NCBI RefSeq assembly: GCF_029582805.1
Contig: NZ_JAKKUT010000001.1
Coordinates: 186,001-250,000 of the forward strand
Origin: Candidatus Synechococcus calcipolaris G9
GTDB lineage: Bacteria; Cyanobacteriota; Cyanobacteriia; Thermosynechococcales; Thermosynechococcaceae
Direction: 5' to 3'
Length of the DNA stretch: 64,000 nt
The position numbers and the translations under genes are program-made. The notes beneath the pieces are model-generated. The model had not been told where the DNA came from, made no database searches, and saw nothing but the letters and a program-made list of their open reading frames with translations. Positions 31,890 to 53,555 of the stretch are shown here, piece after piece. Each line of letters opens with the position of its first letter. Position 1 is the first letter of the stretch.

Positions 31890-32504
31890 TTAGAAGGAAC
31901 GCTTTTGAAATAAATCAGTCACGGGCAGGGTAAATCCGGGGATCACCTCTTCGCCCTCCAGAGAATCTGCTGATTTGAGCAGGCGATCTGGTTCTTGGGC
32001 AGAGCGGTAAACCAGAATATGGTGCTGGTTAGGATGAATCACCCAAACAAGTCGAGTACCATTCTCAAAGTATTCAGCTAATTTACTGTCAATTTCTGCA
32101 ATTGTATTCGTCGGTGAAAGGATTTCGATCGCCAGATCCGGTGCGCCATCCAAAAAACCAATGGGAAGGTCATTCAATTCTTGTAAACGCTCTTTGGCAA
32201 AAAAGGAAATATCAGGGGATCGTTTATTACCACTTTTCATCTTGAAGGCCGTGCTGGAATCAAACAAAGCACCTAGTTTTTTAGCCATCACAACTGCAAA
32301 TAAGGCAGAACTTAAAATAATCGCTATATAGCCATGCTTTGCCCCTGAATTTCCCATATCAATCAATTCTCCGTTCACAACCTCATAGTGCTGCCCGTCG
32401 TCAGGTAGTGCCATGAACGCTTCATCCGTCCAGACTTTTTGTTCAGGAACCCCAACGTCAGGAGTTTCCGGGGTTTTTAGTGGTGGTTGAATCAGAGTAG
32501 ACAT
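31890..32504 (-). CDS. Uma2 family putative endonuclease
   Basis: A 204-residue protein of the Uma2 (DUF820) family, a PD-(D/E)XK-like fold expanded in cyanobacteria, role unproven. Family marks: EVVNGELIDMGNSGAKHGYI; the RSPDISFF strand; PDLAIEILSPTNTIAEIDSK with the Glu and core Lys; and RLVWVIHPNQHHILVYRS. ATG 32504 is chosen because AAGGA lies seven bases upstream. It is one of six Uma2 genes in the window and is isolated between unrelated genes. Confidence 0.88.
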   Translation of the reverse strand: MSTLIQPPLKTPETPDVGVPEQKVWTDEAFMALPDDGQHYEVVNGELIDMGNSGAKHGYIAIILSSALFAVVMAKKLGALFDSSTAFKMKSGNKRSPDISFFAKERLQELNDLPIGFLDGAPDLAIEILSPTNTIAEIDSKLAEYFENGTRLVWVIHPNQHHILVYRSAQEPDRLLKSADSLEGEEVIPGFTLPVTDLFQKRSF

Positions 32505-32648
32505 GAGATTTTCCTTAATCACAAATCAAGGGTGTTGCAGCAATACAATCTATACTTTTGATAGGTTTTCTGATAGTATTACAGATAATTAAAAAGCTAA
32601 TCCCTACCGTTTTTATTATACGAGTGGGCAAGAAAAGCTCCTTTAGCC

Positions 32649-37725: not shown

Positions 37726-38412
37726 ATGATGGCAACCTCCGTTAGATATTCACTTTTTGATGTTACTTATCCTGATAGTGATGGCTTGCCAATGGCTGAG
37801 AGTGATGCAACTAGAGATTACTTGATTTATAGTTTCGAAGCCTTAGACAGTTATTTTAAAGAAAATGCTGATGTATATGTTTCTGGAAATTTATTTATCT
37901 ATTACGAACAGGGAAACCCCAAAGCAGTCGTAGCTCCTGATGTATTTGTGGTGTTTGGTGTGGAGAAAAAAAAGCGACCTTCCTATAAGACATGGGAGGA
38001 ACAGGGCAAAATTCCTAATTTTGTATTGGAAATTACTTCAAAAAGTACCGCCAGTGAAGATCGCGGCACGAAAAGAGGTTTATATGCTTACTTGGGAGTG
38101 CAAGAATATTTTCAATATGATCCCACTGCTGATTATTTGAAACCATGTTTGCAAGGATTTCGTTTAATTGAAGACAATTATTTACCCATACCAGGGCAAA
38201 TTCAGGGCGATCGCCTCTCGGTTTATTCTGAAACTCTGGACTTAGAGCTATGGTTAGAGGCAAATGGTGAGATGCGTTTTTATGCTCCCAAGTCAGGAAC
38301 CAAATTACTTAGCCCCAGGGAGATGGAACAAGCCAAGGATCAAGCTGAACAAAGAGTAGCTAAGTTGGCAACTAAGTTACGCGAGCTAGGCATTGATCCA
38401 AATTTGATTTAA
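37726..38412 (+). CDS. Uma2 family putative endonuclease
   Basis: A 228-residue Uma2 protein: VVAPDVFVVFGVEKKKRPSY, IPNFVLEITSKSTASEDRGT with the core Glu and Lys, YAYLGVQEYFQYDPTADYLK, then a C-terminal coiled tail (EMEQAKDQAEQRVAKLATKL). This tailed subtype is widespread in cyanobacteria. It differs clearly from the paralogues at 39086 and 40637. First gene of the accessory patch. Confidence 0.88.
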   Translation: MMATSVRYSLFDVTYPDSDGLPMAESDATRDYLIYSFEALDSYFKENADVYVSGNLFIYYEQGNPKAVVAPDVFVVFGVEKKKRPSYKTWEEQGKIPNFVLEITSKSTASEDRGTKRGLYAYLGVQEYFQYDPTADYLKPCLQGFRLIEDNYLPIPGQIQGDRLSVYSETLDLELWLEANGEMRFYAPKSGTKLLSPREMEQAKDQAEQRVAKLATKLRELGIDPNLI

Positions 38413-38475
38413 GCTAACGGCGATCGCCCAACTATTCGCTGCAAATCACTGAATTATATCCAGAGACTATAAGAT

Positions 38476-38937
38476 ATGACTGATCAATTAAAAATCATGT
38501 CCAAAACATTGTATGAAATTGATTACAATCTTTGGGTAATTGAAACAGTTAAGCAACTAGAGAAAAGAGAGTTTAATGCCCTTGACTTGGAAAATTTAAT
38601 TGAGGAGGTTGCTGATTTGAGTCGGCGAGATAAACGAAAACTAGAAAGCTTGCTAACTCGACTCATTGAACATTTACTAAAATTAAAGTATTGGCAGTCT
38701 GAGAAAGACCAAAATCTTGGACATTGGCAAGGTGAAGTGCGTACTTTTCGTAAACAAATTAAAAAGGAGTTGAAAGCTAGTCCTAGCTTAAAGGAATATT
38801 GTCAAGAGGTTTTTGAAGAATGCTATCAAGATGCTAGAGAGATTTTTGGCGATAGATCACAGCTTCCTCTCAGCACGTTTCCCAAAAAGTCAATCGCTGA
38901 TCTTGATCAAGTATTAGATGAAGATTGGTTCCCTTAA
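38476..38937 (+). CDS. DUF29 family protein
   Basis: A 153-residue protein with the DUF29 pattern: TLYEIDYNLWVIETVKQLEK, FNALDLENLIEEVADLSRRD, LLTRLIEHLLKLKYW and a C-terminal CYQDAREIFGDRSQLPLSTF ending in LDEDWFP. DUF29 genes are common and multicopy in cyanobacteria, function unknown. It is co-directional with the flanking Uma2 genes, and a second DUF29 tail follows its stop in the same frame. Confidence 0.85.
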   Translation: MTDQLKIMSKTLYEIDYNLWVIETVKQLEKREFNALDLENLIEEVADLSRRDKRKLESLLTRLIEHLLKLKYWQSEKDQNLGHWQGEVRTFRKQIKKELKASPSLKEYCQEVFEECYQDAREIFGDRSQLPLSTFPKKSIADLDQVLDEDWFP

Positions 38938-39051
38938 AAGAATCGACGTAAAGGTGCTCTTAAGGAAACATTTTTAGATGCAGACATTTTTCCAGAAAGC
39001 TGCCCCTATCGTTGGCAAGAGCTAACAGATGAGTCTTTTTTGCCTGAGTAG
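38938..39051 (+). pseudogene. C-terminal remnant of a second DUF29 gene
   Basis: Directly after the DUF29 stop, and in the same frame, a further 37 codons read NRRKGALKETFLDADIFPES then CPYRWQELTDESFLPE before TAG at 39049-39051. This is the characteristic DUF29 C-terminus (F-P-E-x-C-P-Y ... FLPE) without any N-terminal part or ribosome site. It is best read as the leftover of a tandem paralogue after deletion or recombination. Confidence 0.65.
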
Positions 39052-39085
39052 TAATATATTACCGGTCGGTATAAGAACCTAGACT

Positions 39086-39775
39086 ATGACGATAATTTGG
39101 CCACCTTCATCTTCTCTACCTCCTTTGGAAACTGGCGATCGCCTGGAACGCCATGAATTTGAGCGACGCTATGCCCAGATGCCAGAGATCAAGAAAGCCG
39201 AACTGATTAATGGAGTCGTATACATGGCCTCCCCTTTGCGGTATCGACAGCATGGCCAACCCCATAGTCAAATCAATGCTTGGCTACAGGTGTATGCAGT
39301 AGTTACGCCCTGCGCTGAGGTTGCTGACAATGCCACAGTGCGTCTTGATAGCTACAATGAAGTCCAACCCGATACTCTCTTGCGTTTGGATACTGCCGTA
39401 GGCGGCCAGTCTCGGATTACCCCCGATGACTACCTGGAAGGTGCCCCAGAATTAATTGTGGAAATAGCCTCTAGTAGTGCTGCCTATGATCTCCACGATA
39501 AGCTAGAGGTCTATTGTCGCCATGGAGTACAGGAGTACCTAGTGTGGACAACCCAAGAGCCAGATTTTTACTGGTATGTTCTCCAGAAGGGTCGCTATGA
39601 ACGCCAGGTTATTGATGGGGACTATCTCAAAAGTCAGGTATTTCCAGGGTTGTGGCTTGATCTTCATGCCCTATTAGCCGGGAATATCCGCCAAGTGTTA
39701 CAGGTCTTAAACCTTGGCCTTGCCTCTCCTGAATATCAAACATTTGTGCAGCAGTTACGCCAAAAAACTAGATAA
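39086..39775 (+). CDS. Uma2 family putative endonuclease, paralogue A
   Basis: A 229-residue Uma2 protein: RLERHEFERRYAQMPEIKKA, ELINGVVYMASPLRYRQHGQ, GGQSRITPDDYLEGAPELIV with IASSSAAYDLHDKLEVYCRH, and VWTTQEPDFYWYV. It is strongly similar along its whole length to the Uma2 protein at 40637-41311, differing mainly in the first 15 residues and in the region around residues 60-90. The two flank the DUF3782 gene. Confidence 0.88.
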   Translation: MTIIWPPSSSLPPLETGDRLERHEFERRYAQMPEIKKAELINGVVYMASPLRYRQHGQPHSQINAWLQVYAVVTPCAEVADNATVRLDSYNEVQPDTLLRLDTAVGGQSRITPDDYLEGAPELIVEIASSSAAYDLHDKLEVYCRHGVQEYLVWTTQEPDFYWYVLQKGRYERQVIDGDYLKSQVFPGLWLDLHALLAGNIRQVLQVLNLGLASPEYQTFVQQLRQKTR

Positions 39776-39804
39776 AATAAATTAATCAGAGTTTTAATTG
39801 CCTC

Positions 39805-40635
39805 GTGGAACCAGCCGAAGTCATTGCCATTATTCAACAAGAGCTACCGCAGCTAGTCGCCCAGGATCCCCTAGTCAGAGATTTTGTCCTGCGAACAGTC
39901 TCTGAGTTTTATATAAGCAGACACGAAGCCGATAGTAAGTTTGATCGCATTTTGGCTGAACTTCAGCGAGATCGCGAGGAGCAAACTCGCAAGTGGGAAG
40001 AACAAAACCGCAAGTGGGAAGAACAAGCCGGTCGGTGGGAAGAACAAGCCGGTCGCTGGCAAGAGCAAGCCCGCCGGTGGGAAGAGCAAGATCGTCGTTG
40101 GCAAGAGCAAGCCCGCCGGTGGGAAGAGCAAGATCATCGTTGGCAAGAGCAAGCCCGCCGGTGGGAAGAACAAGATCGCAGATGGCACGAACAACTGGCA
40201 GAAATCCGTCGTCTTGATAAGCGATTTGAGAGTACGATTGGTGCCCTAGGTTCTCGCTGGGGCATTGCTTCTGAAGCTAGTTTTCGTAGTGCCTTAGCGG
40301 GTATTTTAACCGAATCTTTTGGGGTTGATGTCTTAAATCTGACCCTCTATGACAATGAGGGTGAAGTCTTTGGTCGCCCCGATCAGGTGGAGATTGATTT
40401 GATTATCAAAAACGGGATGACGATCGCCTGTGAAATTAAATCCTCTATTGATAAGGCAGGCATGTATATCTTTGACCGAAAGGTGAATTTCTATGCCCGC
40501 CATGCCCAACGGGATATTAGCCGCAAAATTGTCATTTCACCGATGGTAGATCACCGCGCTTTGCCAGTTGCTGAAGCGTTGGGAATCGAAATTTACAGCT
40601 ATGCTGATGCTGTCGAAGGACTCTCGGAGGAATAA
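39805..40635 (+). CDS. DUF3782 protein with heptad-repeat coiled coil
   Basis: A 276-residue protein starting at GTG. After a 45-residue head it has about ten heptads of the form RWEEQxR / RWQEQxR, a continuous coiled coil from about 60 to 130 in which Trp recurs every seven residues. The C-terminal half (LDKRFESTIGALGSRWGIAS; EVEIDLIIKNG-like strand VEIDLIIKNGMTIACEIKSS) has the D-x(n)-E-x-K arrangement of PD-(D/E)XK nucleases. Role unknown. The Uma2 gene after it starts within 2 bases of its stop. Confidence 0.82.
   Translation: MEPAEVIAIIQQELPQLVAQDPLVRDFVLRTVSEFYISRHEADSKFDRILAELQRDREEQTRKWEEQNRKWEEQAGRWEEQAGRWQEQARRWEEQDRRWQEQARRWEEQDHRWQEQARRWEEQDRRWHEQLAEIRRLDKRFESTIGALGSRWGIASEASFRSALAGILTESFGVDVLNLTLYDNEGEVFGRPDQVEIDLIIKNGMTIACEIKSSIDKAGMYIFDRKVNFYARHAQRDISRKIVISPMVDHRALPVAEALGIEIYSYADAVEGLSEE
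39988..40198 (+). repeat. In-gene tandem repeat (21/42 bp)
   Basis: A minisatellite inside the DUF3782 gene with a 21-base period. It has a higher-order 42-base unit, seen as three near-identical copies beginning TGGCAAGAGCAAGCCCGCCG at 40057, 40099 and 40141. Copies differ by a few bases only. Since the period is a multiple of three, unit gain or loss would change coiled-coil length without breaking the frame. Confidence 0.9.
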
Positions 40636-40636
40636 C

Positions 40637-41311
40637 GTGGTGTCTTTGAATCAAGTACAGATACCCGTTTTAGAAAATGGCGATCGCCTGGAACGCTATG
40701 AATTTGAGCGACGCTATACCCAGATGCCAAAGGTCAAGAAAGCCGAACTGATTAATGGAGTTGTGTACATGGCATCCCCAGTAAGAATCAAGCGGCATGC
40801 AGAGCCTCACAGTCAGATTATGACTTGGCTGGGAGTCTATACTGCCTCCACTCTGGGGACTCAATTAGTTGATAATGGAACGGTTCGTTTGGGGGCAGAG
40901 AACGAGGTTCAACCTGATGCTCTATTGCGGCTACATACTGCTGTAGGCGGCCAGTCTTGGATTACCTCCGATGACTACCTGGAAGGTGCCCCTGAATTAG
41001 TTGTGGAAATTGCCTCCAGTAGTGCCGCCTATGATCTTCACGATAAGCTAGAGGTCTATTGTCGCAATGGGGTACAGGAGTATCTGGTGTGGACGACCCA
41101 AGAGCCGGATTTTTACTGGTATGTTCTCATTAAGGGTAGCTATGAACGTCAGGTTGTTGATGGCAGTTATCTCAAAAGTCAGGTATTTCCAGGGCTGTGG
41201 CTCGATGTTCAGGCTCTATTGGCAGGGAATATCCGCCAGGTGTTGCAGGGGTTAAACATGGGTCTTGCCTCCTCTGAATATCAAACATTTCTGAGTCGTC
41301 TAAGCCAGTAA
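40637..41311 (+). CDS. Uma2 family putative endonuclease, paralogue B
   Basis: A 224-residue Uma2 protein closely matching paralogue A: RLERYEFERRYTQMPKVKKA, ELINGVVYMASPVRIKRHAE, DDYLEGAPELVVEIASSSAA, YDLHDKLEVYCRNGVQEYLV. I choose GTG 40637, which has GGAGG six bases upstream and lies 1 base after the stop of the DUF3782 gene; a far upstream ATG (40568) overlaps that gene. The last HIP1 octamer before a 12.8 kb gap lies at its 5' end. Confidence 0.88.
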   Translation: MVSLNQVQIPVLENGDRLERYEFERRYTQMPKVKKAELINGVVYMASPVRIKRHAEPHSQIMTWLGVYTASTLGTQLVDNGTVRLGAENEVQPDALLRLHTAVGGQSWITSDDYLEGAPELVVEIASSSAAYDLHDKLEVYCRNGVQEYLVWTTQEPDFYWYVLIKGSYERQVVDGSYLKSQVFPGLWLDVQALLAGNIRQVLQGLNMGLASSEYQTFLSRLSQ

Positions 41312-41442: not shown

Positions 41443-42231
41443 ATGGGAAATCTAATTAACCGTGCTGTGATACTAGCCGGTGGACTTGGTACGCGCATTT
41501 CTGAGGAAACTCATCTCAAGCCCAAGCCCATGATTGAAATTGGTGGGCGGCCCATTCTCTGGCATATCCTAAAAATCTATTCTGCCCATGGCGTGAATGA
41601 GTTTATTATTTGCTGTGGCTATAAAGGCTACATCATCAAAGAATACTTTGCTAACTACTTTTTACATATGTCCGATGTCACTTTCGATATGGCCACAAAT
41701 ACTATGATTGTGCACCAAAGAAAAGCAGAGCCTTGGCGTGTCACACTTGTAGATACCGGGGAGAATACCCTCACTGGCGGACGACTTAAGCGTGTATCAG
41801 AATATCTACAGGGAGAGAAAGCCTTTTGTTTTACCTATGGGGATGGCATTGCTGATATTAATATTACTCGGCAAATTGATTTCCATCAGAGTCATGGCAA
41901 ATTGGCCACTGTAACGGCGGTAAGACCACCAGGACGTTATGGGGCTTTGCAGATCAACCAGGAAGACTATGTAACCGGATTTACAGAAAAACCTCCTGGA
42001 GATGGTGGGTTTATCAATGGTGGTTTTTTTATTCTTTCACCCCAATGTATTAGCTTAATTGCTGGAGATATGACTTCCTGGGAAGCCGAACCTTTAGATA
42101 AACTGGCTTCTAGAGGAGAATTAATGGCCTTTGAGCATCAGGGATTTTGGCAACCGATGGATACTCTCAGAGATAAAAATTACCTAGAAGACCTCTGGCA
42201 GACGGGCCAAGCTCCCTGGAAAATGTGGTGA
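41443..42231 (+). CDS. rfbF: Glucose-1-phosphate cytidylyltransferase
   Basis: Makes CDP-glucose from CTP and glucose-1-phosphate, the entry to CDP-deoxysugars. The nucleotide loop AVILAGGLGTRISEETHLKP, FTYGDGIADINITRQIDFHQ, the GFTEKPPGDGGFINGGFF segment and GFWQPMDTLRDK are family hallmarks. Length 262 is normal. First gene of the polysaccharide island; rfbG follows after 4 bases. Confidence 0.95.
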   Translation: MGNLINRAVILAGGLGTRISEETHLKPKPMIEIGGRPILWHILKIYSAHGVNEFIICCGYKGYIIKEYFANYFLHMSDVTFDMATNTMIVHQRKAEPWRVTLVDTGENTLTGGRLKRVSEYLQGEKAFCFTYGDGIADINITRQIDFHQSHGKLATVTAVRPPGRYGALQINQEDYVTGFTEKPPGDGGFINGGFFILSPQCISLIAGDMTSWEAEPLDKLASRGELMAFEHQGFWQPMDTLRDKNYLEDLWQTGQAPWKMW

Positions 42232-42235
42232 CTCC

Positions 42236-43312
42236 GTGACCCTTGATCCGACGATTTGGCAGAATACCCCAGTTTTTGTGACGGGCCATACTGGCTTTAA
42301 GGGAAGTTGGCTAAGTCTATGGCTCCATCAATTGGGAGCAAATATTTATGGCTATGCCCTAGCACCGCCGACCCAACCAAATCTATTTGAAGTGGCTGAA
42401 GTCAATCGGTTTTTAAGCCAAGACACTCGGGCCGACTTGGCAAGCCTTGCCACCCTGCGACAGGCCATGATGAATGCCCAACCCCATGTTGTCTTCCATC
42501 TAGCGGCGCAACCCCTAGTTAGAGAAAGTTACCGCAATCCCCTGGGCACATTTGCCACCAATGTGATGGGCACAGCCCATGTCTTAGACATTGTGCGAGA
42601 TTTACCATGCGTCAAAGTAGTTATTATTATTACCACTGATAAGGTTTATGAAAACCATGAGTGGGTCTACCCCTACCGTGAAGTAGATAGATTAGGCGGT
42701 TATGATCCCTACAGTGCCAGTAAAGCCGCTGCGGAATTAGTGGTTTCCAGCTATCGCCGTAGTTTTTTTAGCGGTCAAGAACAGCCAAAACTTGTCACAG
42801 TACGAGCAGGGAATGTGGTGGGTGGAGGTGACTGGGCTGTAGATCGACTCGTGCCTGATTGTTTGCGGGCTTTTGAAGTAAATCAACCCGTGTTGTTACG
42901 TCATCCCCAAGCAGTACGCCCCTGGCAACACGTCCTAGAGCCACTTTCTGGCTACTTGCAACTGGCTGAGAAACTTCTTACTTCTGGTGTCTATAATGGT
43001 GCCTGGAACTTTGGCCCGGGTTCTAGGGGAGAAGCCCAAGTGGGAGAAGTGGCCGCAATGATGGCAGTTCTTTGGGGTGAAAATGCCCAAATTAATGCTG
43101 AGATCATGACTAACCAACCCCATGAGGCTAGCCTTTTAAGGCTGGATATTACCCGTGCCCGCTGTGAATTGGGGTGGTCTCCCCGATGGTCAATTCAGCA
43201 AGCCCTAGCGGCAACCATTGAGTGGCATCGGGCCTGGTTGGCGGGTCAAGAAATGGCTACGTACTCTTTAGGGCAAATTAATGCCTATCAAAATAGTGTG
43301 GGAGAGCTATGA
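42236..43312 (+). CDS. rfbG: CDP-glucose 4,6-dehydratase
   Basis: Converts CDP-glucose to CDP-4-dehydro-6-deoxyglucose. An extended SDR with VFVTGHTGFKGSWLSLWLHQ at the N-terminus, ITTDKVYEN, the catalytic YDPYSASKAAAELVVSSYRR (Tyr-x3-Lys) and RAGNVVGGGDWAVDRLVPD. 358 residues, GTG start at 42236. The last 4 bases overlap the next gene. The pair rfbF-rfbG is diagnostic for a CDP-linked deoxysugar. Confidence 0.95.
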   Translation: MTLDPTIWQNTPVFVTGHTGFKGSWLSLWLHQLGANIYGYALAPPTQPNLFEVAEVNRFLSQDTRADLASLATLRQAMMNAQPHVVFHLAAQPLVRESYRNPLGTFATNVMGTAHVLDIVRDLPCVKVVIIITTDKVYENHEWVYPYREVDRLGGYDPYSASKAAAELVVSSYRRSFFSGQEQPKLVTVRAGNVVGGGDWAVDRLVPDCLRAFEVNQPVLLRHPQAVRPWQHVLEPLSGYLQLAEKLLTSGVYNGAWNFGPGSRGEAQVGEVAAMMAVLWGENAQINAEIMTNQPHEASLLRLDITRARCELGWSPRWSIQQALAATIEWHRAWLAGQEMATYSLGQINAYQNSVGEL

Positions 43313-43866
43313 GTCTAACGCTTAAAGAAACCCCAATTACTGGAATGGTTCTTGTCCAAGGTCAACCGTTTCGAGATCGGCGGGGCTTCTTTTATCGAGC
43401 ATTTTGTGATCAACAGTTGGCTTCAGTCTTGGGCGGTCGAATCATTCGCCAAATAAATATCTCACAAACCATGGAGATTGGGGCAATTCGCGGACTCCAC
43501 TTTCAAACTCCACCCGCTACTGAGATGAAACTGGTTCGCTGTCTTCGGGGCCGAGTCTGGGATGTTGTCGTTGATTTACGAGAGGGTTCAAAGACATTTT
43601 TGGAATGGCATGGTGTAGAATTAGAGCCAAATGCCTCGATAATGGTTGTGATCCCTGAAGGATGTGCCCATGGTTTTCAAGTTTTAGAGACAGGTAGCGA
43701 ATTGCTTTATCTTCATACGGCTCCCTATACCCCAACGGCAGAAGGTGGGCTACGCTACAATGATCCTCGCTTGGGTATTTCTTGGCCCCTAGTGCCAACG
43801 GATCTGTCCCAGCGAGATCAAACTCATCCCCTGTTAGCTGATGAGTTTTCAGGAATCAGTTTATGA
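43309..43866 (+). CDS. dTDP-4-dehydrorhamnose 3,5-epimerase family protein
   Basis: A 185-residue cupin of the RmlC family: GMVLVQGQPFRDRRGFFYRA, INISQTMEIGAIRGLHFQTP with the catalytic His, RCLRGRVWDVVVDLREGS, IPEGCAHGFQVLE and LRYNDPRLGISWPL. With rfbF and rfbG before it, the substrate is probably CDP-4-dehydro-6-deoxyglucose rather than the dTDP sugar, giving a 3- or 5-epimerised intermediate. It overlaps both neighbours by 4 bases. Confidence 0.88.
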   Translation: MSLTLKETPITGMVLVQGQPFRDRRGFFYRAFCDQQLASVLGGRIIRQINISQTMEIGAIRGLHFQTPPATEMKLVRCLRGRVWDVVVDLREGSKTFLEWHGVELEPNASIMVVIPEGCAHGFQVLETGSELLYLHTAPYTPTAEGGLRYNDPRLGISWPLVPTDLSQRDQTHPLLADEFSGISL

Positions 43867-45086
43867 AGTGTCGTCATTGTGGTGCTGACATGACTCTTCC
43901 ACTGATAGATTTGGGCAGTGCTCCTCCTTCAAACGCTTATCTAACACCAGAAAAGCTTCATTCCCCAGAATTATGGTTTCCCTTACGGGTCTTGGTTTGC
44001 CAAAAGTGTTGGCTGGTTCAAACAGAAGATTTTACTCAAGCAGATGAGTTGTTTAATGCGGAATATGCCTATTTTTCGAGTACATCCAAAAGTTGGTTGG
44101 CCCATGCAGCCCAGTATAGCCAGGCAATCATTAAAGACCTTGGGCTAAACTCGGACAGTTTTGTGATTGAAATCGCCTCAAATGACGGCTATTTGCTGAA
44201 AAACTTCGTTAAGAAAGAGATTCCTTGCTTGGGCATTGAACCTACGGCAAGTACTGCCGCAGTAGCTGAAAAATTAGGGATTCCAGTCCTACGGGAATTT
44301 TTTGGGGAACCATTAGGTCAACGATTAGCAGACCAAGGACAGCAAGCCAACTTAATTGTAGGGAACAATGTGTATGCCCATGTGCCGGACATTAACGATT
44401 TTACCCGTGGGCTAAAGGCTGCACTCAAACCCGGTGGAACAATCACCCTAGAATTTCCCCATGTAATGAAACTTATTCAACAGGTACAATTTGATACAAT
44501 TTATCATGAGCATTTTTCCTATTTATCTCTCTATACTGTGAATAAAATTTTCAATGATGCTGGCCTCAAAATTTGGGACACTGAAGAGTTATCTACCCAT
44601 GGAGGCAGCCTACGGGTTTATGGATGTCACAAAGATGATCGGAGATCGATCACTGGAAGAGTCCAATCGATATTAGATCAAGAGGCAACTGCTAGTTTAC
44701 AAAACCCAATTCCCTATCAAACCTTTCAAGAAAGGGCAAATACAGTCAAAAACCATCTTATTTCATTTTTAGTTGAACAAAAACGAAAGGGAAAACAAGT
44801 TGCTGCCTATGGAGCTGCTGCCAAGGGAAATACACTGCTGAATTATGCTGGTATAAAACCGGATTTACTACCCTATATTTGTGATGCTTCTCCTGCCAAA
44901 CAGGGAAAGTTTATGCCAGGGAGTCGTATTCCTGTTGTAAATGAAAGTCAAATCAAAAGCACTAAGCCTAGTTATGTGGTGATTTTACCTTGGAATTTAA
45001 AAAAAGAAATCATGCTTCAGCTTGAGTATATTCGAGATTGGGGGGGAAAGCTGGTTTTGGCTATTCCCCAAATGGAGGTAATATGA
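43863..45086 (+). CDS. Class I SAM-dependent C-methyltransferase-like protein
   Basis: A 407-residue three-part methyltransferase of the type seen in branched-sugar pathways (TylC3/NovU-like). The N-terminal zinc-binding part has MKCRHCGADM and LVCQKCWLVQ. The SAM-binding part has FVIEIASNDGYLLKNFVKKE, and YHEHFSYLSLYTVNKIF is the characteristic His-rich segment. The C-terminal part has GKQVAAYGAAAKGNTLLNY. It likely adds a methyl carbon at C3 of a 4-keto CDP-sugar. Overlaps the aminotransferase start by 4 bases. Confidence 0.85.
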   Translation: MKCRHCGADMTLPLIDLGSAPPSNAYLTPEKLHSPELWFPLRVLVCQKCWLVQTEDFTQADELFNAEYAYFSSTSKSWLAHAAQYSQAIIKDLGLNSDSFVIEIASNDGYLLKNFVKKEIPCLGIEPTASTAAVAEKLGIPVLREFFGEPLGQRLADQGQQANLIVGNNVYAHVPDINDFTRGLKAALKPGGTITLEFPHVMKLIQQVQFDTIYHEHFSYLSLYTVNKIFNDAGLKIWDTEELSTHGGSLRVYGCHKDDRRSITGRVQSILDQEATASLQNPIPYQTFQERANTVKNHLISFLVEQKRKGKQVAAYGAAAKGNTLLNYAGIKPDLLPYICDASPAKQGKFMPGSRIPVVNESQIKSTKPSYVVILPWNLKKEIMLQLEYIRDWGGKLVLAIPQMEVI

Positions 45087-46204
45087 ATTCTCGTATTTAC
45101 TACACGAAGCCTTCTATTACTGAATTAGAAGTTGAGTATGCTACGGATGCCGCTCGCAATGGCTGGGGAGATCGCTGTTATGAATATATTGATCGATTTG
45201 AGGAAGCATTTAAAAATCATCTTGGTGTAAAGTATGCCATTGCAACTTCAAGTTGCACGGGTGCATTGCACATGGGTATGGCAGCTTTGGGAATTGGCCT
45301 AGGTGATGAAGTAATTCTGGCAGATACCAATTGGATCGCTACCGCAGCACCCATTGTACATTTAGGAGCAAAACCTGTCTTTGTAGATATCTTACCGGAT
45401 AGCTGGTGCATCGACCCTGAACTAGCGGAAGCTGCTATTACACCTAAAACAAAAGCAATTGTTGCAGTTCATTTGTATGGCAATTTATGCGAAATGGATC
45501 GTTTGCTAGCTATTGGGAAGAAATATGAAATTCCAGTTATTGAAGATGCAGCAGAGGCGATCGGTTCGATTTATCATGGAAAACGAGCTGGAAGTATGGG
45601 CAAGTTCGGGAGTTTCTCCTTTCACGGGACAAAGACACTAACTACTGGTGAGGGTGGGATGTTTGTCACAAACGATGCTGATCTTTATGAAACTGTACTT
45701 ACTCTTTCTAATCATGGACGCGCCAGAGGACAAAAAAAGCAATTTTGGCCAAATATGGTGGGCTTTAAGTATAAAATGTCTAATATTCAGGCGGCGATCG
45801 GTTATGGACAAATGCAGCGCATTGATGAACTAATTGATCGGAAACGTGAGATTCTGAAATTTTATAAAGATCATCTTGAGTGTCTTGAGGGTGTGTCGAT
45901 GAATCCTGAGCCAGAGGGAACGATTAATGGGGCATGGATGCCCACCATTGTCTTTGATAAACAAACTGGAGTGACCCGCGAACAGTTACAATCTCTTTTC
46001 ACATCAGAAAATATAGACGCAAGAGTATTCTTTCATCCTTTGTCGAGTTTATCGATGTTTGAGAAGAAAGAAGTTAATATAAATTCATGGAATATTCCAT
46101 TACGTTCGATTAATCTACCTAGCTATTATGATATAAATCAACAATACCTATCTTTTGTTATAGACTGTATTTCCAAAAAACTAGAAATTATGTCTAAATG
46201 CTAA
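45083..46204 (+). CDS. DegT/DnrJ/EryC1 sugar aminotransferase
   Basis: A PLP enzyme that aminates a keto-sugar nucleotide. In the 373-residue form from ATG 45083, Asp155 (PVIEDAAEAIGS) and the Schiff-base Lys184 (FSFHGTKTLTTGEGGM) are intact, and the C-terminus is complete. It resembles perosamine-synthase-type 4-aminotransferases. Translation is coupled to the methyltransferase before it (ATGA overlap, GGAGG upstream). Substrate inferred as a 4-keto-6-deoxy sugar. Confidence 0.88.
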   Translation: MNSRIYYTKPSITELEVEYATDAARNGWGDRCYEYIDRFEEAFKNHLGVKYAIATSSCTGALHMGMAALGIGLGDEVILADTNWIATAAPIVHLGAKPVFVDILPDSWCIDPELAEAAITPKTKAIVAVHLYGNLCEMDRLLAIGKKYEIPVIEDAAEAIGSIYHGKRAGSMGKFGSFSFHGTKTLTTGEGGMFVTNDADLYETVLTLSNHGRARGQKKQFWPNMVGFKYKMSNIQAAIGYGQMQRIDELIDRKREILKFYKDHLECLEGVSMNPEPEGTINGAWMPTIVFDKQTGVTREQLQSLFTSENIDARVFFHPLSSLSMFEKKEVNINSWNIPLRSINLPSYYDINQQYLSFVIDCISKKLEIMSKC

Positions 46205-47038
46205 ATAATTTACTTACAGAAGAACAAGTAACAGAGTTTAATGAATACGGCTATATTGTCATCAAAGGATTCTACAACCGTAAGGTAGAGATAGAGCCTA
46301 TATTATATGGTATTTGGAAATATTAAAATCTTTTAAAAATATAATATTGAAATAGAATCTAAAGACTTTTCTCCTGAGACCTTTGATTATGGCTATCAAA
46401 AGTTAATTTCTGTTAATCGTAAATATGGGGGGGAAGTGTATGATGCTATTAAACAGATACCTGCCTTTATGCGTCTGCTTAGTTTAGAAAAAAACGATCG
46501 GGTATTTATGCAATTACGAAACATTAATACTCCAGCAATTGCCGCAGCAGGCTATGGTATTCGCATTGATAACCCTCACGAAGAAAAATATCGTTCTTTG
46601 TGGCATTACGAATATAGAGATCAGTTGAGAAGTATAGATGGTATAGTTTTCTGGAGTCCCCTGGTCAATTTAATCTCTGAAATGGGGCCAGTACAGATAT
46701 GCCCACGATCTCATGTGGGTGGATTACGGCGATCTTATTTGAAAGATCCAGACAATCCTGAAAAAACGGGAGTATATGCAATGCGCTTAGAGAATGAAGA
46801 AGCTTTAATTGCTCAATATGGTACTGTTGCACCACTTTCTGAACCAGGAGACTTATTATTAATAGATTTTCTTACTTTACATTCATCGGGTGTTAATATT
46901 TCTGAAAGATCTCGCTGGAGTATACAATTTAGGTACTTTAGTTTTGAAGATCCCAGCGGAATTCGCATTAATTGGACTGGTTGTGTCGCCAATGGTACAC
47001 AACTTAAAGACATTCATCCTGAATTAGTTATAGATTAG
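46198..47038 (+). pseudogene. PhyH-like dioxygenase gene broken by a frameshift
   Basis: ATG 46198, overlapping the aminotransferase by 7 bases, gives LLTEEQVTEFNEYGYIVIKG then FYNRKVEIEPILYGIWKY before TAA at 46324-46326. From 46337 the next frame carries on the same protein (IESKDFSPETFDYGYQKLIS; IDNPHEEKYRSLWHYEYRDQ; EPGDLLLIDFLTLHSSGVNI) to 47038. Together they give a phytanoyl-CoA dioxygenase-like Fe(II)/2-oxoglutarate enzyme of normal length. A real inactivating change or an assembly error in the A/T-rich junction are both possible. The downstream part alone could start at GTG 46436. Confidence 0.65.
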
Positions 47039-47084
47039 CGCTTTGCGTGGATCCAAGTTGTCTTCAAATCTAACATCAACTACT

Positions 47085-48239
47085 ATGATTAACTGTGCCT
47101 TAACTGGAAAAACTTTAAAAAAGCCAATTTATGAATCGCAAGGAAATTTATCTGTTACTTCTTTGAGCCAAACTTATGAGGGCAAAACCGTTGTTTATTT
47201 TAATGAAGAAATAGGTCATTTACAGACTAAAGAAATCAAAGATATTGAAGTTTACTACGATAAACAATATCAATTCTTTAATCAAAGTGATGAAGATGAT
47301 ATTTTATATAAGGTAATTGATGGCAAAAAAGTCTTTAGACAAGAGCATCAGGTTAATACTCTATTGTCAAAGATTAATTTTGAAGCCGGGATGCAAGTCT
47401 TAGATTATGGCTGTGCTAAGGGTACAGTGATGAAACGTCTGGGTTTACATAATCCCTCCGTAGAAATATACTTGTTTGATGTCAGTCAAATGTATGTCAA
47501 TTTATGGGACAAATTTTTGCCTTCAGATCATTATGCTTCTTACAAAATAAAACCAGAATGGCACAAGAAATTTGATTTAGTTACATCGTTCTTTGCTTTT
47601 GAACACGCCCCATATCCTGTCAAAGAACTGCGTAATATTAATAACTTACTAAAGGATGGCGGATATTTTTATTGTATTGTGCCTAATGTCTTTGAGAATA
47701 CAGGTGACTTTATAGTTGCTGACCATGTACATCATTATAGTGATGTATCCTTGAAATATCTGTTAGCAAAAGCAGGTTTTGAAACTGTTGAAATTGATGC
47801 TTTCTCCCATTTCGGTGCTTACATTGCTATAGGCAAAAAGAAATCGCAAAACTCGCTAGAATTTGATATTAATTCCCAAAAATTGGCAGACGTAGTAAAT
47901 GCCGTGCAAGAAACAGCCAATTATTGGAATACCTTACAGGATAAAATTTGTCAATTTGAGCAGTCTGTGAGAGGACAAAAATCCGCCATATACGGAGCAG
48001 GTGTTTATGGTAGTTTTATTGCTACATGCCTTGAAAATTTAAATAATGTTCAATGCTTCATAGATCAAAACCCGCTTTTACACAACACAAAAGTAATGGG
48101 TAAGGATATACATCATCCCGATGACTTACCCCAAGATGTAACCAGTATTTATGTAGGGATTAACCCAAGAATTGCATCTCAAATTATTGGAGGTATAGCT
48201 TCATGGAAGGACAAGAAATTATCTATTTTGTATTTATAG
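47085..48239 (+). CDS. Class I SAM-dependent methyltransferase with C-terminal sugar-associated domain
   Basis: A 384-residue protein. The SAM-binding core has MQVLDYGCAKGTVMKRLGLH, FDLVTSFFAFEHAPYPVKEL and YFYCIVPNVFENTGDF. The C-terminal 110 residues (SAIYGAGVYGSFIATCLENL; CFIDQNPLLHNTKVMGKDIH) form a second Rossmann-like part seen in sugar methyltransferases. ATG 47085 is preferred over an upstream TTG. AT-rich DNA like the rest of this block. Substrate unknown. Confidence 0.8.
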   Translation: MINCALTGKTLKKPIYESQGNLSVTSLSQTYEGKTVVYFNEEIGHLQTKEIKDIEVYYDKQYQFFNQSDEDDILYKVIDGKKVFRQEHQVNTLLSKINFEAGMQVLDYGCAKGTVMKRLGLHNPSVEIYLFDVSQMYVNLWDKFLPSDHYASYKIKPEWHKKFDLVTSFFAFEHAPYPVKELRNINNLLKDGGYFYCIVPNVFENTGDFIVADHVHHYSDVSLKYLLAKAGFETVEIDAFSHFGAYIAIGKKKSQNSLEFDINSQKLADVVNAVQETANYWNTLQDKICQFEQSVRGQKSAIYGAGVYGSFIATCLENLNNVQCFIDQNPLLHNTKVMGKDIHHPDDLPQDVTSIYVGINPRIASQIIGGIASWKDKKLSILYL

Positions 48240-48250
48240 AAACACAGGAT

Positions 48251-48946
48251 ATGCGTATAGGAATTTTAGCATCTAGTGGAGGAAGTGCATTTATAGAAAC
48301 ATGGAAAATACTTTGCAAATATTCATCCACTAAGCATGATTATTTTGTTTTTACGGATAGAGAATGTGGAATCGAAAATTTTTGTCGCAACAACGATATT
48401 CCATATAAACGAATTACATATGTTGACCGCAAACGGTTTTCGATAGAAGCTAATGAATATATCTACAGTATTGGTGGTGTGGATGTAATCTTTTTATACT
48501 TTTTGCGAATATTAACAAAAGATCTCTTTATGAAATATCCTTGTCTCAATATACACCCTGCGTTGCTACCTGCTTTTAAAGGGATAAATGCTGTTGAGCA
48601 ATTTATTCAATCTGGAGCTAAATTCATGGGTGCTACACTACATCTGATAGATGAAGGTATAGATACTGGAGCTATTATTGCTCAGATACAAACACCTATG
48701 CCCCATCAAACTAACTTAGAAAAAGCTTCTAAGGTTTCTTTTTTGCAAAAAGTATATTTAACTTTGATAGGGATAGAACTACTTGAAAAAAACTATATTG
48801 CTTTTGCTAACGATTTCTCAAGCTTTGAAATAATAGAAGCTTTACCTTATTCCCTCTCTGCAAACCCGATATTACAGAATTCAAATTTTGTGGAGGGATT
48901 TCTTGAGTTGCAACAACATGAAAATACTAAAATAATCAACTCATAA
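48251..48946 (+). CDS. Formyltransferase family protein (sugar N-formyltransferase-like)
   Basis: A 231-residue protein of the 10-formyl-THF-dependent fold shared with PurN, Fmt and ArnA. The catalytic triad is visible: Asn100 and His102 in CLNIHPALLPAFKG and Asp139 in LIDEGIDTGAIIAQ. Together with the aminotransferase upstream it suggests an N-formylated amino sugar, as in VioF or QdtF systems. I use ATG 48251; the longer frame overlaps the preceding methyltransferase. The next gene starts 1 base after its stop. Confidence 0.82.
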   Translation: MRIGILASSGGSAFIETWKILCKYSSTKHDYFVFTDRECGIENFCRNNDIPYKRITYVDRKRFSIEANEYIYSIGGVDVIFLYFLRILTKDLFMKYPCLNIHPALLPAFKGINAVEQFIQSGAKFMGATLHLIDEGIDTGAIIAQIQTPMPHQTNLEKASKVSFLQKVYLTLIGIELLEKNYIAFANDFSSFEIIEALPYSLSANPILQNSNFVEGFLELQQHENTKIINS

Positions 48947-48947
48947 G

Positions 48948-49667
48948 ATGAAAATAGTTATCTCGCAACCCATGTATTTCCCTTGGATTGGTATGTTTGA
49001 GCAGATAAATTTATGCGATGCTTATGTAAATTACGATGATGTTCAGTTTTCTAAAGGTAGCTTTACTAATCGTGTACAAGTAAAAACTAATTCGCTGGAG
49101 GGGTTTAAGTGGCTTACAGTTCCTTTAAAAAATCTAAAGCTGGGTGTTTTAATTAATGAGTTAGAAATAAACAATCAAAAGAATTGGCAAAACCAACATT
49201 TAGAAATACTTAAGCAAGCATATAAGAATGCTCCATATGCCAAGGAAATGTTAGAGTTAGTAACTAATCTTTTTGATTTGTCTCTTACTACTATTTCAGA
49301 ATTATCTATGAAAAGTATGGGACTGAGTATTCACTACTTTGATCTTGCAGAATATAAAACTTTTTATACTGCTTCTAAAGTTGGAATAGAAGGTAGTAGC
49401 TCTGAGAGAGTGTACCGGATAGTTAAGCATTTAAATGGAACACATTACATTACTGGCCATGGGGCTAAAAATTACTTAGATCATTCTCTTTTTGAAAAGA
49501 ATGGGATTAGAGTAGAATATATGAACTATCTCAGGCTGCCTTATCCACAGCAATTTTCTGGATTTAACCCTCATGTTTCTATACTAGACCTTATTGCTAA
49601 TACTGGTAAACAGGGTAAAGCATATATCAAGTCTTCAACAATCTATTGGAAAGAATTTCTAGCATGA
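48948..49667 (+). CDS. WbqC family protein
   Basis: A 239-residue protein matching WbqC: KIVISQPMYFPWIGMFEQIN, CDAYVNYDDVQFSKGSFTNR, FKWLTVPLKNLKLG and THYITGHGAKNYLDHSLFEK. The family occurs in O-antigen clusters; its biochemical role is not settled. It starts 1 base after the formyltransferase stop and overlaps the next gene by 4 bases. Confidence 0.9.
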   Translation: MKIVISQPMYFPWIGMFEQINLCDAYVNYDDVQFSKGSFTNRVQVKTNSLEGFKWLTVPLKNLKLGVLINELEINNQKNWQNQHLEILKQAYKNAPYAKEMLELVTNLFDLSLTTISELSMKSMGLSIHYFDLAEYKTFYTASKVGIEGSSSERVYRIVKHLNGTHYITGHGAKNYLDHSLFEKNGIRVEYMNYLRLPYPQQFSGFNPHVSILDLIANTGKQGKAYIKSSTIYWKEFLA

Positions 49668-50410
49668 ATCCTATTGAACAATTTGATCAATCAAAGTCTA
49701 TAAATATTGCAGGTTTGGGAAATGATGATAATGTGCAGAAGTCAGCTATTCAGTTTATGCTGGATTCTGCTCCTTACCAGTACACTTATAATTTTACTTG
49801 GCTTGGTCGCCCGATTATTCAGTATCCGCAGGATATAATTGCACTGCAAGAGTTGATATGGAAAGTTCAGCCTGATTTAATTGTTGAAACAGGTATTGCC
49901 CATGGTGGATCACTGATTTTTTCGGCTTCGATGCTAGAGCTTAACGCGATCTGTGGTGGTTGCCAAGATGCAGAGGTTTTGGGATTGGATATTGATATTC
50001 GCACCCACAATCGGGAAGCTATTGAATCCCATCCGATGTTTAAACGCATTTCGATGATTCAAGGATCGAGCATTGATCCTGAAATTATTGAACAGGTGAA
50101 GGCAAAAGCATCTGGCAAGCAGAAAATTTTAGTATTTCTAGACAGCAACCATACCCACGATCATGTATTGGCTGAACTAGAAGCTTATGCACCATTGGTG
50201 TCAGTCGGCAGCTATTGCGTAGTGTTTGATACCATAATTGAGGATTTACCTGATAATATGTTTAGTGACAGGCCTTGGGGAGTGGGTAATAATCCAAAAA
50301 CAGCCGTGTGGGAATACCTGAAAACCCATCCTGAATTTGAAATCGATACAAATATTCAAAATAAACTTTTGATCACAGTAGCCCCCGATGGTTATTTAAA
50401 ACGTCTTTAG
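49664..50410 (+). CDS. CmcI/rhamnosyl O-methyltransferase family protein
   Basis: A 248-residue protein of the cephalosporin-hydroxylase (CmcI) family, whose characterised members are SAM-dependent O-methyltransferases. Marks: TWLGRPIIQYPQDIIALQEL, LIVETGIAHGGSLIFSASML (SAM loop), VLGLDIDIRTHNREAIESHP and ILVFLDSNHTHDHVLAELEA. It likely methylates a sugar hydroxyl in the glycan. ATG 49664 sits in an ATGA overlap with wbqC. Confidence 0.85.
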   Translation: MNPIEQFDQSKSINIAGLGNDDNVQKSAIQFMLDSAPYQYTYNFTWLGRPIIQYPQDIIALQELIWKVQPDLIVETGIAHGGSLIFSASMLELNAICGGCQDAEVLGLDIDIRTHNREAIESHPMFKRISMIQGSSIDPEIIEQVKAKASGKQKILVFLDSNHTHDHVLAELEAYAPLVSVGSYCVVFDTIIEDLPDNMFSDRPWGVGNNPKTAVWEYLKTHPEFEIDTNIQNKLLITVAPDGYLKRL

Positions 50411-50420
50411 AGCAGAGAAT

Positions 50421-51557
50421 ATGGTCAAGGCAGATAAAAATTTAAAAAAATTGACCTTAGTAATGCTGAGTTATAATAGGCAACTCTATGCATTACGAAA
50501 TATGAGATTTTGGTCTGGAAAAGAAGTTTTCCTTCATGTTATTGATGGTACATCATATCCTATTGATAATAATGATTTACTTATTTTTTCCGATAATATT
50601 TTCTATCATCATATTCCCCTTTCTTGTCAGGAACGCCTTGGCTATGCTGTTCAATTTTTGGCTACTGATTATGTGGCTTTAATTGGAGATGATGAGTTTT
50701 TCCTTGAAACTAGTTTACTTGCTTCGATTAATGAACTAGAAAATGATCATACACTTGTTGCATGTATGGGCTTGGCAATAGGCTTTCAATATAATTCCAG
50801 TGATAACAGTATTATTGCTTCATCGATATATGAGTCCCTTAAGGATCATAGTATTCAGTCTGAAGATCCCTGTCAACGAATGATAGATCATATGAGTCAA
50901 TATATCTGTTCGACAATATATTCAGTCGTAAGACGTGAAGTTTGGATTCGCGCATTTCAAGCTAATATTAATTATGAATTTCCAATATTCGCTATTGGTG
51001 AGTTGCAATTTGAATTATCAGTAGTATATTTTGGAAAATCGAAAATTATTCCTTATCTTCATTGGCTTCGATCATTTGAAAATCCATCGATTTCCAATTC
51101 AGAAGATATTAGTCTGAGTAGAAATAACCAGTTTCACGAATGGTGGTTAGCACCTGAAAAAAATGATTTTCGTGAAGATTTCATAAACCATACATTGCTA
51201 CCCTTACTAGACGCTAAAACTAATGAAAATGAAAAAATAAAAATTAAATCTGCCATTAAGAAAGCTATGGATAATTATTCAAACTTATGTACCAATAATT
51301 TGAAAAAAAATAATATTACAAATTCATCGAAATCAATATTTAAGTCAATAACACCTTTCAAATATTTATGGGGTATAATGAGAAAAATCAAAGAAAAAAT
51401 TTACTTAATATTTGATTTTAATAAATTTCAAAAGGACAAAATTACCCTTCGAAAAATGTGTCAACAACTTAGTGATCAAGGAATATATGTTAAAATCGAT
51501 GAAATTGATCGGGTAGAATCATCTATACGCTGTTTTTATGAGAAATCTGAGAAATAA
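50421..51557 (+). CDS. TIGR00180-type glycosyltransferase
   Basis: A 378-residue GT-A-type enzyme: LTLVMLSYNRQLYALRNMRF at the start and a DxD-like metal site in DYVALIGDDEFFLETSLLAS. The middle (ASSIYESLKDHS to HEWWLAPEKN) fits the family. The last 100 residues are Lys-rich and amphipathic (IMRKIKEKIYLIFDF), perhaps a membrane-surface anchor. The end overlaps the radical SAM gene by 20 bases. Donor and acceptor unknown. Confidence 0.75.
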   Translation: MVKADKNLKKLTLVMLSYNRQLYALRNMRFWSGKEVFLHVIDGTSYPIDNNDLLIFSDNIFYHHIPLSCQERLGYAVQFLATDYVALIGDDEFFLETSLLASINELENDHTLVACMGLAIGFQYNSSDNSIIASSIYESLKDHSIQSEDPCQRMIDHMSQYICSTIYSVVRREVWIRAFQANINYEFPIFAIGELQFELSVVYFGKSKIIPYLHWLRSFENPSISNSEDISLSRNNQFHEWWLAPEKNDFREDFINHTLLPLLDAKTNENEKIKIKSAIKKAMDNYSNLCTNNLKKNNITNSSKSIFKSITPFKYLWGIMRKIKEKIYLIFDFNKFQKDKITLRKMCQQLSDQGIYVKIDEIDRVESSIRCFYEKSEK

Positions 51558-52530
51558 GGCTTCATCCGCTTACAGGTATTATTTTAATACTTATCATCCC
51601 ACTAATATGATTTTAGATATTTGTGGGGCCTGTAATGCTCAATGTCCTTTTTGCCCCCGAATTCATATGCCTGAAGAACGGGCCAGGGGGTTTATGGATC
51701 GTGAAACCTTTGATATTTCTGTTTCCCAAGCTGAATCAATGGGTATCACTGATGTTAGATTATATGCAACTGCCGAACCTACTTTACATCCTCAATTTGC
51801 TGAATATGTATCAATCCTAAAAGACAAGAATTTTTTTGTTACAGTTTCAACTAATGCATCAATGCTATATAAACATTTTGAGGTTCTCTCCAGGGTTGAT
51901 TATCTTCAGTATTCAATTGAGGGTTGGGATAAAGAATCCTATGAAAAGTTCCGCTATCCTCTTAAGTTTGATATTGTAAAGCGAAATATTGAAGAATTTT
52001 GGAATTATATTCGTGACCATTCTCAGCGACCTTTGATTAACTGTAATTTACTTGCCACCCAAAGTGTGAATATTGATGAATTTTTTGCTTGTTGGGCTGA
52101 TTTTGTTGATCAAATTTCAATATCACCATTAATGACAACGACACGGTACGATACCAAATCTGGAAAATTTATTTCCGAGCTTAATTCTGATATTCAAACT
52201 GATTATTATGATCATGAACGTGATCTAACAAGGTTTTGTACTTATCCCTTTACATATATCACTGTTGCATTTGATGGTAAACTGGCTCTTTGCTGTGCAG
52301 ATTTTTCTGCAGAAATTAATTTGGGCTATATTTCAGATGGAATTGAGAATTGGAAAAATAATCAACTAATGAAAAAAATAAGGCATCAGTTTTCACCTTT
52401 TGGTAAAAAAGATATGTGTGCTGGATGTAATTTTTTTTTAAGGCCTACTCAATCAACAATTAGTGCCCTGTCTGAACAAGTTGAAAAATTACCAGTTCAT
52501 TATAAATCTAAAGCAAAATTAGCATATTAA
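51538..52530 (+). CDS. Radical SAM protein with C-terminal cysteine cluster
   Basis: A 330-residue radical SAM enzyme. The [4Fe-4S]-SAM motif is Cys32-x3-Cys36-x2-Cys39 in ICGACNAQCPFCPRIHMPEE, with an extra Cys29. The core follows with YATAEPTLHPQFAEYV and VTVSTNASMLYK. Near the end are CCADFSAEINLGYISDG and KKDMCAGCNFF, resembling a SPASM/twitch auxiliary cluster. Such enzymes in glycan clusters include sugar dehydrogenases and epimerases; the substrate here is unknown. It ends 2 bases before the legB-like gene. Confidence 0.88.
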   Translation: MRNLRNKASSAYRYYFNTYHPTNMILDICGACNAQCPFCPRIHMPEERARGFMDRETFDISVSQAESMGITDVRLYATAEPTLHPQFAEYVSILKDKNFFVTVSTNASMLYKHFEVLSRVDYLQYSIEGWDKESYEKFRYPLKFDIVKRNIEEFWNYIRDHSQRPLINCNLLATQSVNIDEFFACWADFVDQISISPLMTTTRYDTKSGKFISELNSDIQTDYYDHERDLTRFCTYPFTYITVAFDGKLALCCADFSAEINLGYISDGIENWKNNQLMKKIRHQFSPFGKKDMCAGCNFFLRPTQSTISALSEQVEKLPVHYKSKAKLAY

Positions 52531-52532
52531 TA

Positions 52533-53528: not shown

Positions 53529-53555
53529 AGTTATTTAGGATTATTTAAGGACTCA

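Follow-up and report, generated by a model that had tools for sequence, protein, structure and literature searches.

Neighbouring Uma2 genes in cyanobacteria share their ends and differ in a fixed middle segment

How did two similar Uma2 genes, here called paralogues A and B, come to stand on either side of a DUF3782 gene in Candidatus Synechococcus calcipolaris G9, and what sets the two copies apart? Both lie in the window analysed here, the 64,000 nt of NZ_JAKKUT010000001.1 from 186,001 to 250,000, and coordinates are those of the window. A sequence-only reading had placed three Uma2 genes, a DUF29 gene, a DUF29 remnant and a DUF3782 gene within 37726-41311, and had counted six Uma2 genes in the window. 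Pfam and blastx searches bore out the cluster, the DUF3782 gene also having a PDDEXK_10 domain and the remnant being the tail of a second DUF29 gene. A search of the genome gave 38 Uma2 matches, some of them partial, and confirmed the six in the window. With 38 matches in 3.3 Mb the average density is one per ~87 kb, so that three within 3.6 kb amount to clustering.

The same reading took A and B for near-copies left by a recent duplication. Both exceed the 27-bit cut-off of Pfam Uma2 (PF05685) and they are identical at 168 of 224 aligned residues (75%), which suits the word near-copies at the ends of the proteins and not in the middle. In residues 49-95 (segment V) 32.7 of 34.0 synonymous sites differ, a proportion of synonymous differences (pS) of 0.96. 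From residue 17 elsewhere the figure is 34.5 of 111.0, or 0.31 (Fisher P 9e-13). Over windows of 30 codons, pS starts at 0.10 (codons 15-45), rises to 0.67-1.01 in the middle and lies at 0.19-0.42 beyond codon 90; none of 20000 codon permutations matched the observed maximum. Such a contrast is impossible after a single recent duplication, and A and B are therefore a mosaic.

The origin of the segments was compared among 51 gene copies. The C-terminal (C) segments of A and B are mutually closest, at 90% identity. Their V segments are 53% identical; the best match to the V of A is in genome G055 (72%), and the best to the V of B is in G036 (64%). In a FastTree tree the V of B groups with a G055 gene (support 0.81). 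Recent tandem duplication of a single Uma2 gene would by itself explain the overall identity and the constant 1545-base offset between A and B. Nevertheless, the saturated synonymous sites of the middle and the closer matches in other genomes leave that account with next to no credence. A DNA search of the own genome with the V of A matched only itself, giving no silent donor for this segment.

The same division was seen where one array could be followed between strains. Four genomes of genus g5 (G011, G014, G020 and G024), which is probably Thermosynechococcus, carry an orthologous array at one site, with upstream flanks that align at 76-85% over 401-500 bp. All first copies have a middle of type V1. 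V2a is found in the second copies of G020 and G011 and in a copy of G026; the second copies of G014 and G024 have V2b. Identity is 0.89-1.00 within V types (pS 0.11-0.37) and 0.49-0.64 between them (pS 0.73-1.04), while the C segments are 0.89-0.99 identical throughout and are most alike between the genome's own two copies in G011 (pS 0.02) and G020 (0.14). Along the G011 pair, nucleotides are 93-100% identical before residue ~49, 30-67% at ~49-93 and again 97-100% at ~103-199, with another drop over the last ~15 residues. By segment comparison, an exchangeable variable block between conserved flanks is thus present in this array. A peptide search with V1 in six genomes gave 24 matches, 21 of them with E <1e-6 and at Uma2 positions, and three weak ones (E >=0.3) elsewhere.

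Trees of the two segments conflict. The C tree groups the copies by genome (A with B, support 0.99; G011, 0.95; G020, 0.91 and 0.97; G014, 0.84; G024, 0.85), whereas the V tree groups them by type across genomes (V1, 1.00; V2a, 0.99; V2b, 0.90; IIa, 1.00; IIb, 1.00). Within types, the ratio of nonsynonymous to synonymous substitution rates over 17 pairs was 0.091 for V and 0.060 for C. The type pattern, the conflicting trees and these ratios together indicate that the middle types are old, functional, held under purifying selection and inherited or exchanged as blocks, and that the remainder of the gene is repeatedly homogenised within genomes.

To gauge how general this is, 36 stretches containing 78 recognised Uma2 genes were picked by position from match lists. 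Pairs were kept if on the same strand, no more than 2.5 kb apart, at least 55% identical and aligned over at least 140 codons. This left 31 pairs from 19 stretches, the other 17 giving none. Divergence was greater in V than in the C segment in 27 of the 31 pairs and 18 of the 19 arrays (Wilcoxon over arrays, 1.3e-5). Among pairs of the type of A, V exceeded C in 14/14 and the N-terminal (N) segment in 13/14. A scan with 40-codon windows and no preset segments was applied to 30 pairs with at least 60% identity, 28 of which had a pS contrast above 0.2. The most divergent window had its centre within residues 55-90 in 22 of the 28 and in 16 of 17 arrays; with orthologous arrays collapsed, the island lay there in 11/12 (P 8.5e-7 against a uniform place). 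Four-fold degenerate sites, pooled over 13 pairs, differed at 84/176 in V, 88/483 in C and 37/175 in N.

Several results count against the reading preferred below, a homogenised body around a fixed, exchangeable middle. At four-fold degenerate sites V exceeded C in 11 of the 13 pairs, hence not in all. The island of L308 is centred elsewhere (residue 102), and L317 shows no island. In L322 the C segment cannot be relied on (proportion of nonsynonymous differences 0.36); without L322 the counts become 26/30 pairs and 17/18 arrays. The arrays, all cyanobacterial, come from eight genomes, with 8 of the 19 from G062. Type IIc lacks support as a clade in the V tree. Downstream of the orthologous array, the flank of G024 aligns with that of G014 over 107 bp and with that of G011 over 145 bp, and no other flanks align. 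Variable positions in the helix at residues 53-73 showed no significant helical periodicity (P 0.13), for which reason a one-faced variable helix was dropped. Moreover, ten control tandem pairs outside Uma2 (DUF29, DUF3782 and others) also have patchy pS, with islands in varying places. Conversion between neighbours is thus ordinary, and the fixed place is the result specific to Uma2.

The control pairs bear directly on a neutral explanation. Recombination depends on sequence similarity, and a middle that has diverged could stop conversion through mismatch rejection, with no selection acting on it. The patchy pS of the DUF29 and DUF3782 pairs is what such a process might leave. Nevertheless, it is rather unlikely to account for the Uma2 genes, in which the island has a common position in 11/12 independent arrays and the middle types stay under purifying selection.

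The position of V in the protein was examined on an AlphaFold model of A, which has the fold of solved Uma2 proteins: VIA-align gave Z 21.8 to 6okh (root-mean-square deviation (rmsd) 2.0, 173 residues aligned), 17.5 to 3ot2 (rmsd 2.4, 170 residues) and 16.6 to 1wdj (rmsd 3.0, 175 residues). The Uma2 active site has been described as H ... PD ... EXX ... K (PMC551604). The corresponding H56, D96, E126 and K139 are invariant in five aligned Uma2 proteins of the six in the window. In a 21-sequence set D96 and E126 are invariant, K139 is kept in at least 90% and H56 in less than 90%; H56 is invariant in 24 array sequences. In the model (predicted local distance difference test score (pLDDT) 93.1) V consists of the core helix 53-73 and the strands up to residue 93, directly before the PD strand. 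Two of the four active-site residues are close to it, H56 inside and D96 just beyond.

Such a position would also suit a self-pairing surface, in which distinct middles prevent mixed dimers of otherwise alike bodies and leave DNA specificity unchanged. The segment contains the first core helix, and TT1808 (1wdj) has one large contact between its chains A and B of 153 residue pairs (PMC7582526). We regard pairing alone as a less likely account.

The explanation preferred here, with a probability of roughly 0.55, is that tandem Uma2 arrays share one catalytic body under concerted evolution and carry an exchangeable middle that sets the recognition or the pairing of each copy. The array, its mosaic structure, the fixed middle, the old types and the block difference between strains are plain from the comparisons above; the middle would most likely be a specificity or pairing element. 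Recombination keeps array members alike at the N terminus and in the catalytic C-terminal half and leaves out the middle (residues ~48-93), so that old types persist side by side. The middle may set what is recognised, a DNA feature or a partner, and selection may keep the types distinct. The array would then amount to a small set of PD-EXX-K nucleases that share a catalytic body and differ in specificity, and they would act either as selfish recombinogenic nucleases or against foreign DNA. More speculative, and held as a somewhat doubtful extension, is that a middle of 47 residues, passed between strains as a block and preserved in old, distinct types, gives each member its own target, and that this diversified repertoire works in the manner of an innate immune or selfish competition system.

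The gene between A and B appears to have a history of its own. Both Pfam domains of its product exceed the cut-off (90.9 and 68.5 bits). P192, D193, E210 and K212 of the catalytic site are invariant in 42 proteins and D198 is kept in at least 90%. The AlphaFold model (pLDDT 85.8) has a long helix at residues 39-137 followed by a C-terminal PD-(D/E)XK domain. Its top VIA-align matches are AF1548 (Z 10.8), a Pyrococcus repair endonuclease (9.7) and EndoMS (9.3), with Can2 and Card1 among later ones; by sequence, the best PDB match reached E 0.049. Foldseek matches to metallo-beta-lactamases were not used. Bacterial DUF3782-PDDEXK_10 proteins with an endonuclease domain and without nonads have been described (PMC4786415), and the protein here resembles those endonucleases in its coiled-coil stalk and PD-(D/E)XK domain. 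The 21-bp repeat unit of the gene corresponds to heptads, in line with that account. The protein differs from those described there by Trp heptads encoded in a minisatellite of variable length.

Of 145 genomes, 11 have close relatives of this gene, at 17 loci in all with that of the window counted; the count takes in one fragment and leaves out another beside a G005 copy. The proteins measure 217-357 residues and differ in length in the heptad stalk; frameshifts or stops interrupt some copies. In a wide scan 222 relatives came up, of which the best 80 span cyanobacteria, purple sulphur bacteria, Chloroflexi and others. No match was obtained in phages or plasmids, and no relative in viral contigs. 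The stop codon of A and the start of B are 861 bp apart, 831 of them DUF3782 gene, and because the remainder is a 30-bp spacer, we infer that the gene inserted cleanly between A and B. Neighbours of the type of A are 17-40 bp apart in seven other arrays (L299-L305), ~225 bp in L298 and ~810 bp in L306. These features suit a free-standing, horizontally moving putative nuclease gene unrelated to A and B.

Other observations concern the spacers and the DUF3782 family. At L306 (genome G062, 813-2975) an A-type Uma2 pair, 97% identical, encloses two genes, one for a BrnT toxin (Pfam 95.4 bits) and a small one that is BrnA-like by eye and has no Pfam match, a second case of other genes between Uma2 partners. 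DUF3782-type genes are themselves in tandem at L138, L156, L157 and L165, with conversion-like pS. A small conserved gene with the motif NRKRSKRR...CP.H, recognised by eye, lies near DUF3782 at four loci (L121, L126, L129 and L177); the L121 copy has no Pfam match.

The sequence-only reading had also suggested that the cluster marks a mobile or defence-related module. Mobility was partly upheld. The cluster is absent from the 11-17 kb at and after glcD in each of 18 family relatives, so it is not fixed in synteny, and DUF3782 is patchy, found at several sites and sometimes decayed. In this stretch two DUF29 genes and one Uma2 gene stand 6-8 kb off in G009, and G002 carries a glycan-like cluster and a single Uma2 gene with it. 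A single functional module, for example one in which DUF29 and DUF3782 are partners in defence or as toxin and antitoxin, was not supported. It would suit the head-to-tail order, with DUF3782 separated from A by 29 bp and from B by 1 bp, and PADLOC candidate models match both families (for Uma2 only candidate model PDC-S03, for DUF3782 model C3a181). Nevertheless, besides the absence of the cluster from the glcD site of relatives, DUF3782 occurs elsewhere without this set of neighbours: at none of 15 annotated relative loci is it flanked on both sides by A/B-type Uma2, although such a gene lies within ~5 kb in G036 and G055 and other-type Uma2 or DUF29 genes are near some copies. A module of this kind is therefore very improbable.

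Defence neighbours were sought with PADLOC in ten other proteins of the window (nine at 30.6-52.5 kb and the one starting at 22502). Two of the ten had matches, to mad2 (2.3e-8) and pVip (4.1e-8), which we take to reflect general methyltransferase and radical-SAM similarity. A convincing defence neighbour was not recognised among the window proteins scanned. Nor was an antitoxin partner recognised beside A/B or DUF3782 by Pfam scan and in the annotated relative loci. A had no match in viral contigs by exact peptide patterns, which reach close relatives only. Distant relatives of Uma2 and DUF29 do occur in viruses, as PHROGs families phrog_16228 (A, 3.5e-15) and phrog_11797 (DUF29, 2.1e-11) match them. 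An NCBIfam search gave nothing useful.

Downstream of B lies a sugar-nucleotide gene cluster, and the DUF3782 nuclease might be tied to such surface-glycan clusters and aid their exchange between strains. A DegT or GDP_Man_Dehyd gene lies no more than 15 kb from seven of 14 independent DUF3782 loci, with 0.78 expected (P 3.6e-6); in the first set of loci as a whole the count is 9/17. This test used 31 DegT matches above 100 bits, out of 109, and all ~65 GDP_Man_Dehyd matches listed. Uma2 clusters show no such placement in five other genomes (6/120 against 7.8 expected, with 9 of 158 Uma2 matches left out), whereas in the own genome 8/31 are near sugar genes (1.89 expected). However, the association was first spotted by eye in the loci later tested, and glycosyltransferase family 2 alone is not enriched among the matches listed (173 in total). 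Among 17 further cyanobacterial loci one had a core sugar gene and five had any marker, against one and four in 40 control windows, which came from four first-set genomes and not from those of the 17 loci. Marker genes per 100 kb numbered 2.55 in these loci, 0.77 in the control windows and 3.21 in 57 non-cyanobacterial loci. The seed proteins of the further-loci test came partly from the tested loci, and reliance is therefore placed on the Pfam-marker test. With a core sugar gene at 1 of the 17 further loci, the link is held to be unproven and is judged improbable.

Coordinates are collected in Table 1. B most likely starts at GTG 40637 behind GGAGG rather than at 40568. Genome-wide, DUF29 gave 19 matches and DUF3782 eight, some partial in each case; the only strong DUF3782 match is in the window (94.5 bits), the others reaching at most 30.7 bits.

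Table 1. Features of the window, in window coordinates
Feature	Position	Strand	Support
Uma2 gene, divergent type, outside the A/B pair	37726..38412	+	Pfam Uma2 66.3 bits, partial profile 42-164
DUF29 gene	38476..38937	+	Pfam DUF29 167.5 bits
DUF29 remnant, C-terminal end of a second gene	38947..39048	+	blastx to own-genome DUF29 proteins, last ~34 residues, 47% over 34 aa, 5e-9
Uma2 paralogue A	39086..39775	+	Pfam 110.3 bits; AlphaFold pLDDT 93.1; VIA-align Z 21.8 to 6okh
Variable middle segment V of A, residues 49-95	39230..39370	+	pS against B 0.96; N segment 0.10, C segment 0.31
DUF3782-PDDEXK_10 gene in the A-B spacer, long coiled coil and PD-(D/E)XK nuclease domain	39805..40635	+	Pfam DUF3782 90.9, PDDEXK_10 68.5 bits; AlphaFold
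In-frame 21/42-bp tandem repeat, Trp heptads of the coiled coil	39979..40178	+	Tandem Repeats Finder
Uma2 paralogue B	40637..41311	+	Pfam 104.9 bits on 40568-41308; GGAGG precedes GTG 40637
V segment of B	40775..40915	+	Placed via the 1545-base offset of repeat families D2 and D3
Sugar-nucleotide/surface-glycan gene cluster, neighbour	41443..55909	+	Pfam scan, seven proteins: NTP_transferase, GDP_Man_Dehyd (two), dTDP_sugar_isom, DegT_DnrJ_EryC1 (two), Epimerase_2
Further Uma2 gene, outside the pair	31890..32522	-	Pfam 115.7 bits
Further Uma2 gene, far end of the glycan cluster	55967..56557	+	Pfam 130.8 bits
Further Uma2 gene, far end of the glycan cluster	56650..57273	+	Pfam 98 bits

Elsewhere in the window, a PIN-domain gene lies at 1798-2193 on the minus strand; no antitoxin gene was noticed alongside and none was searched for. 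A repeat array with a period of ~72 nt at 2888-3216 is CRISPR-like in appearance. A ResT/TelK telomere-resolvase catalytic domain (E 2.5e-19) is present in the 814-aa protein encoded at 22502-24946 on the plus strand of this cyanobacterial chromosome contig.

The specificity subunits (HsdS) of type I restriction systems consist of conserved parts around exchangeable variable parts. A and B likewise have conserved flanks and an exchangeable variable block; unlike in HsdS, the variable part lies inside a single-chain nuclease, and no recombinase or methylase gene was recognised beside them. Cassette-shuffling systems differ in having silent donors, of which none was found in the own genome for the V of A, the only V searched.

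Tandem Uma2 duplications and paralogous cassettes have long been known (PMC2701414, PMC551604). Feder and Bujnicki (2005) proposed the Uma2/COG4636/DUF820 family as selfish recombinogenic nucleases (PMC551604), and A and B resemble it in the PD-EXX-K site with a conserved His and in their tandem copies. No fixed variable segment is described in the available text of that paper, where 'gene conversion' occurs 0 times in the main text. Makarova (2009) regarded paralogous Uma2 cassettes as likely 'solo toxins' (PMC2701414), with a COG4636-COG4636 entry in Table 2 bearing the number 114; as presented in the portions consulted, these cassettes have no mosaic structure, in which they differ from A and B. 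The mosaic fits either proposal, selfish nucleases or solo toxins, and adds where the copies differ. Among the matches listed in the open-access PMC literature, conversion in Uma2 was the subject of no title or abstract opening, and 'Uma2' and 'gene conversion' occur together in two papers.

Uma2 genes are abundant and unexplained in cyanobacteria, with the 38 matches in this genome and 63 in one relative. A middle that is fixed in place, purified by selection and exchangeable would pinpoint the functional difference between the copies, and it makes Uma2 function testable by chimeras.

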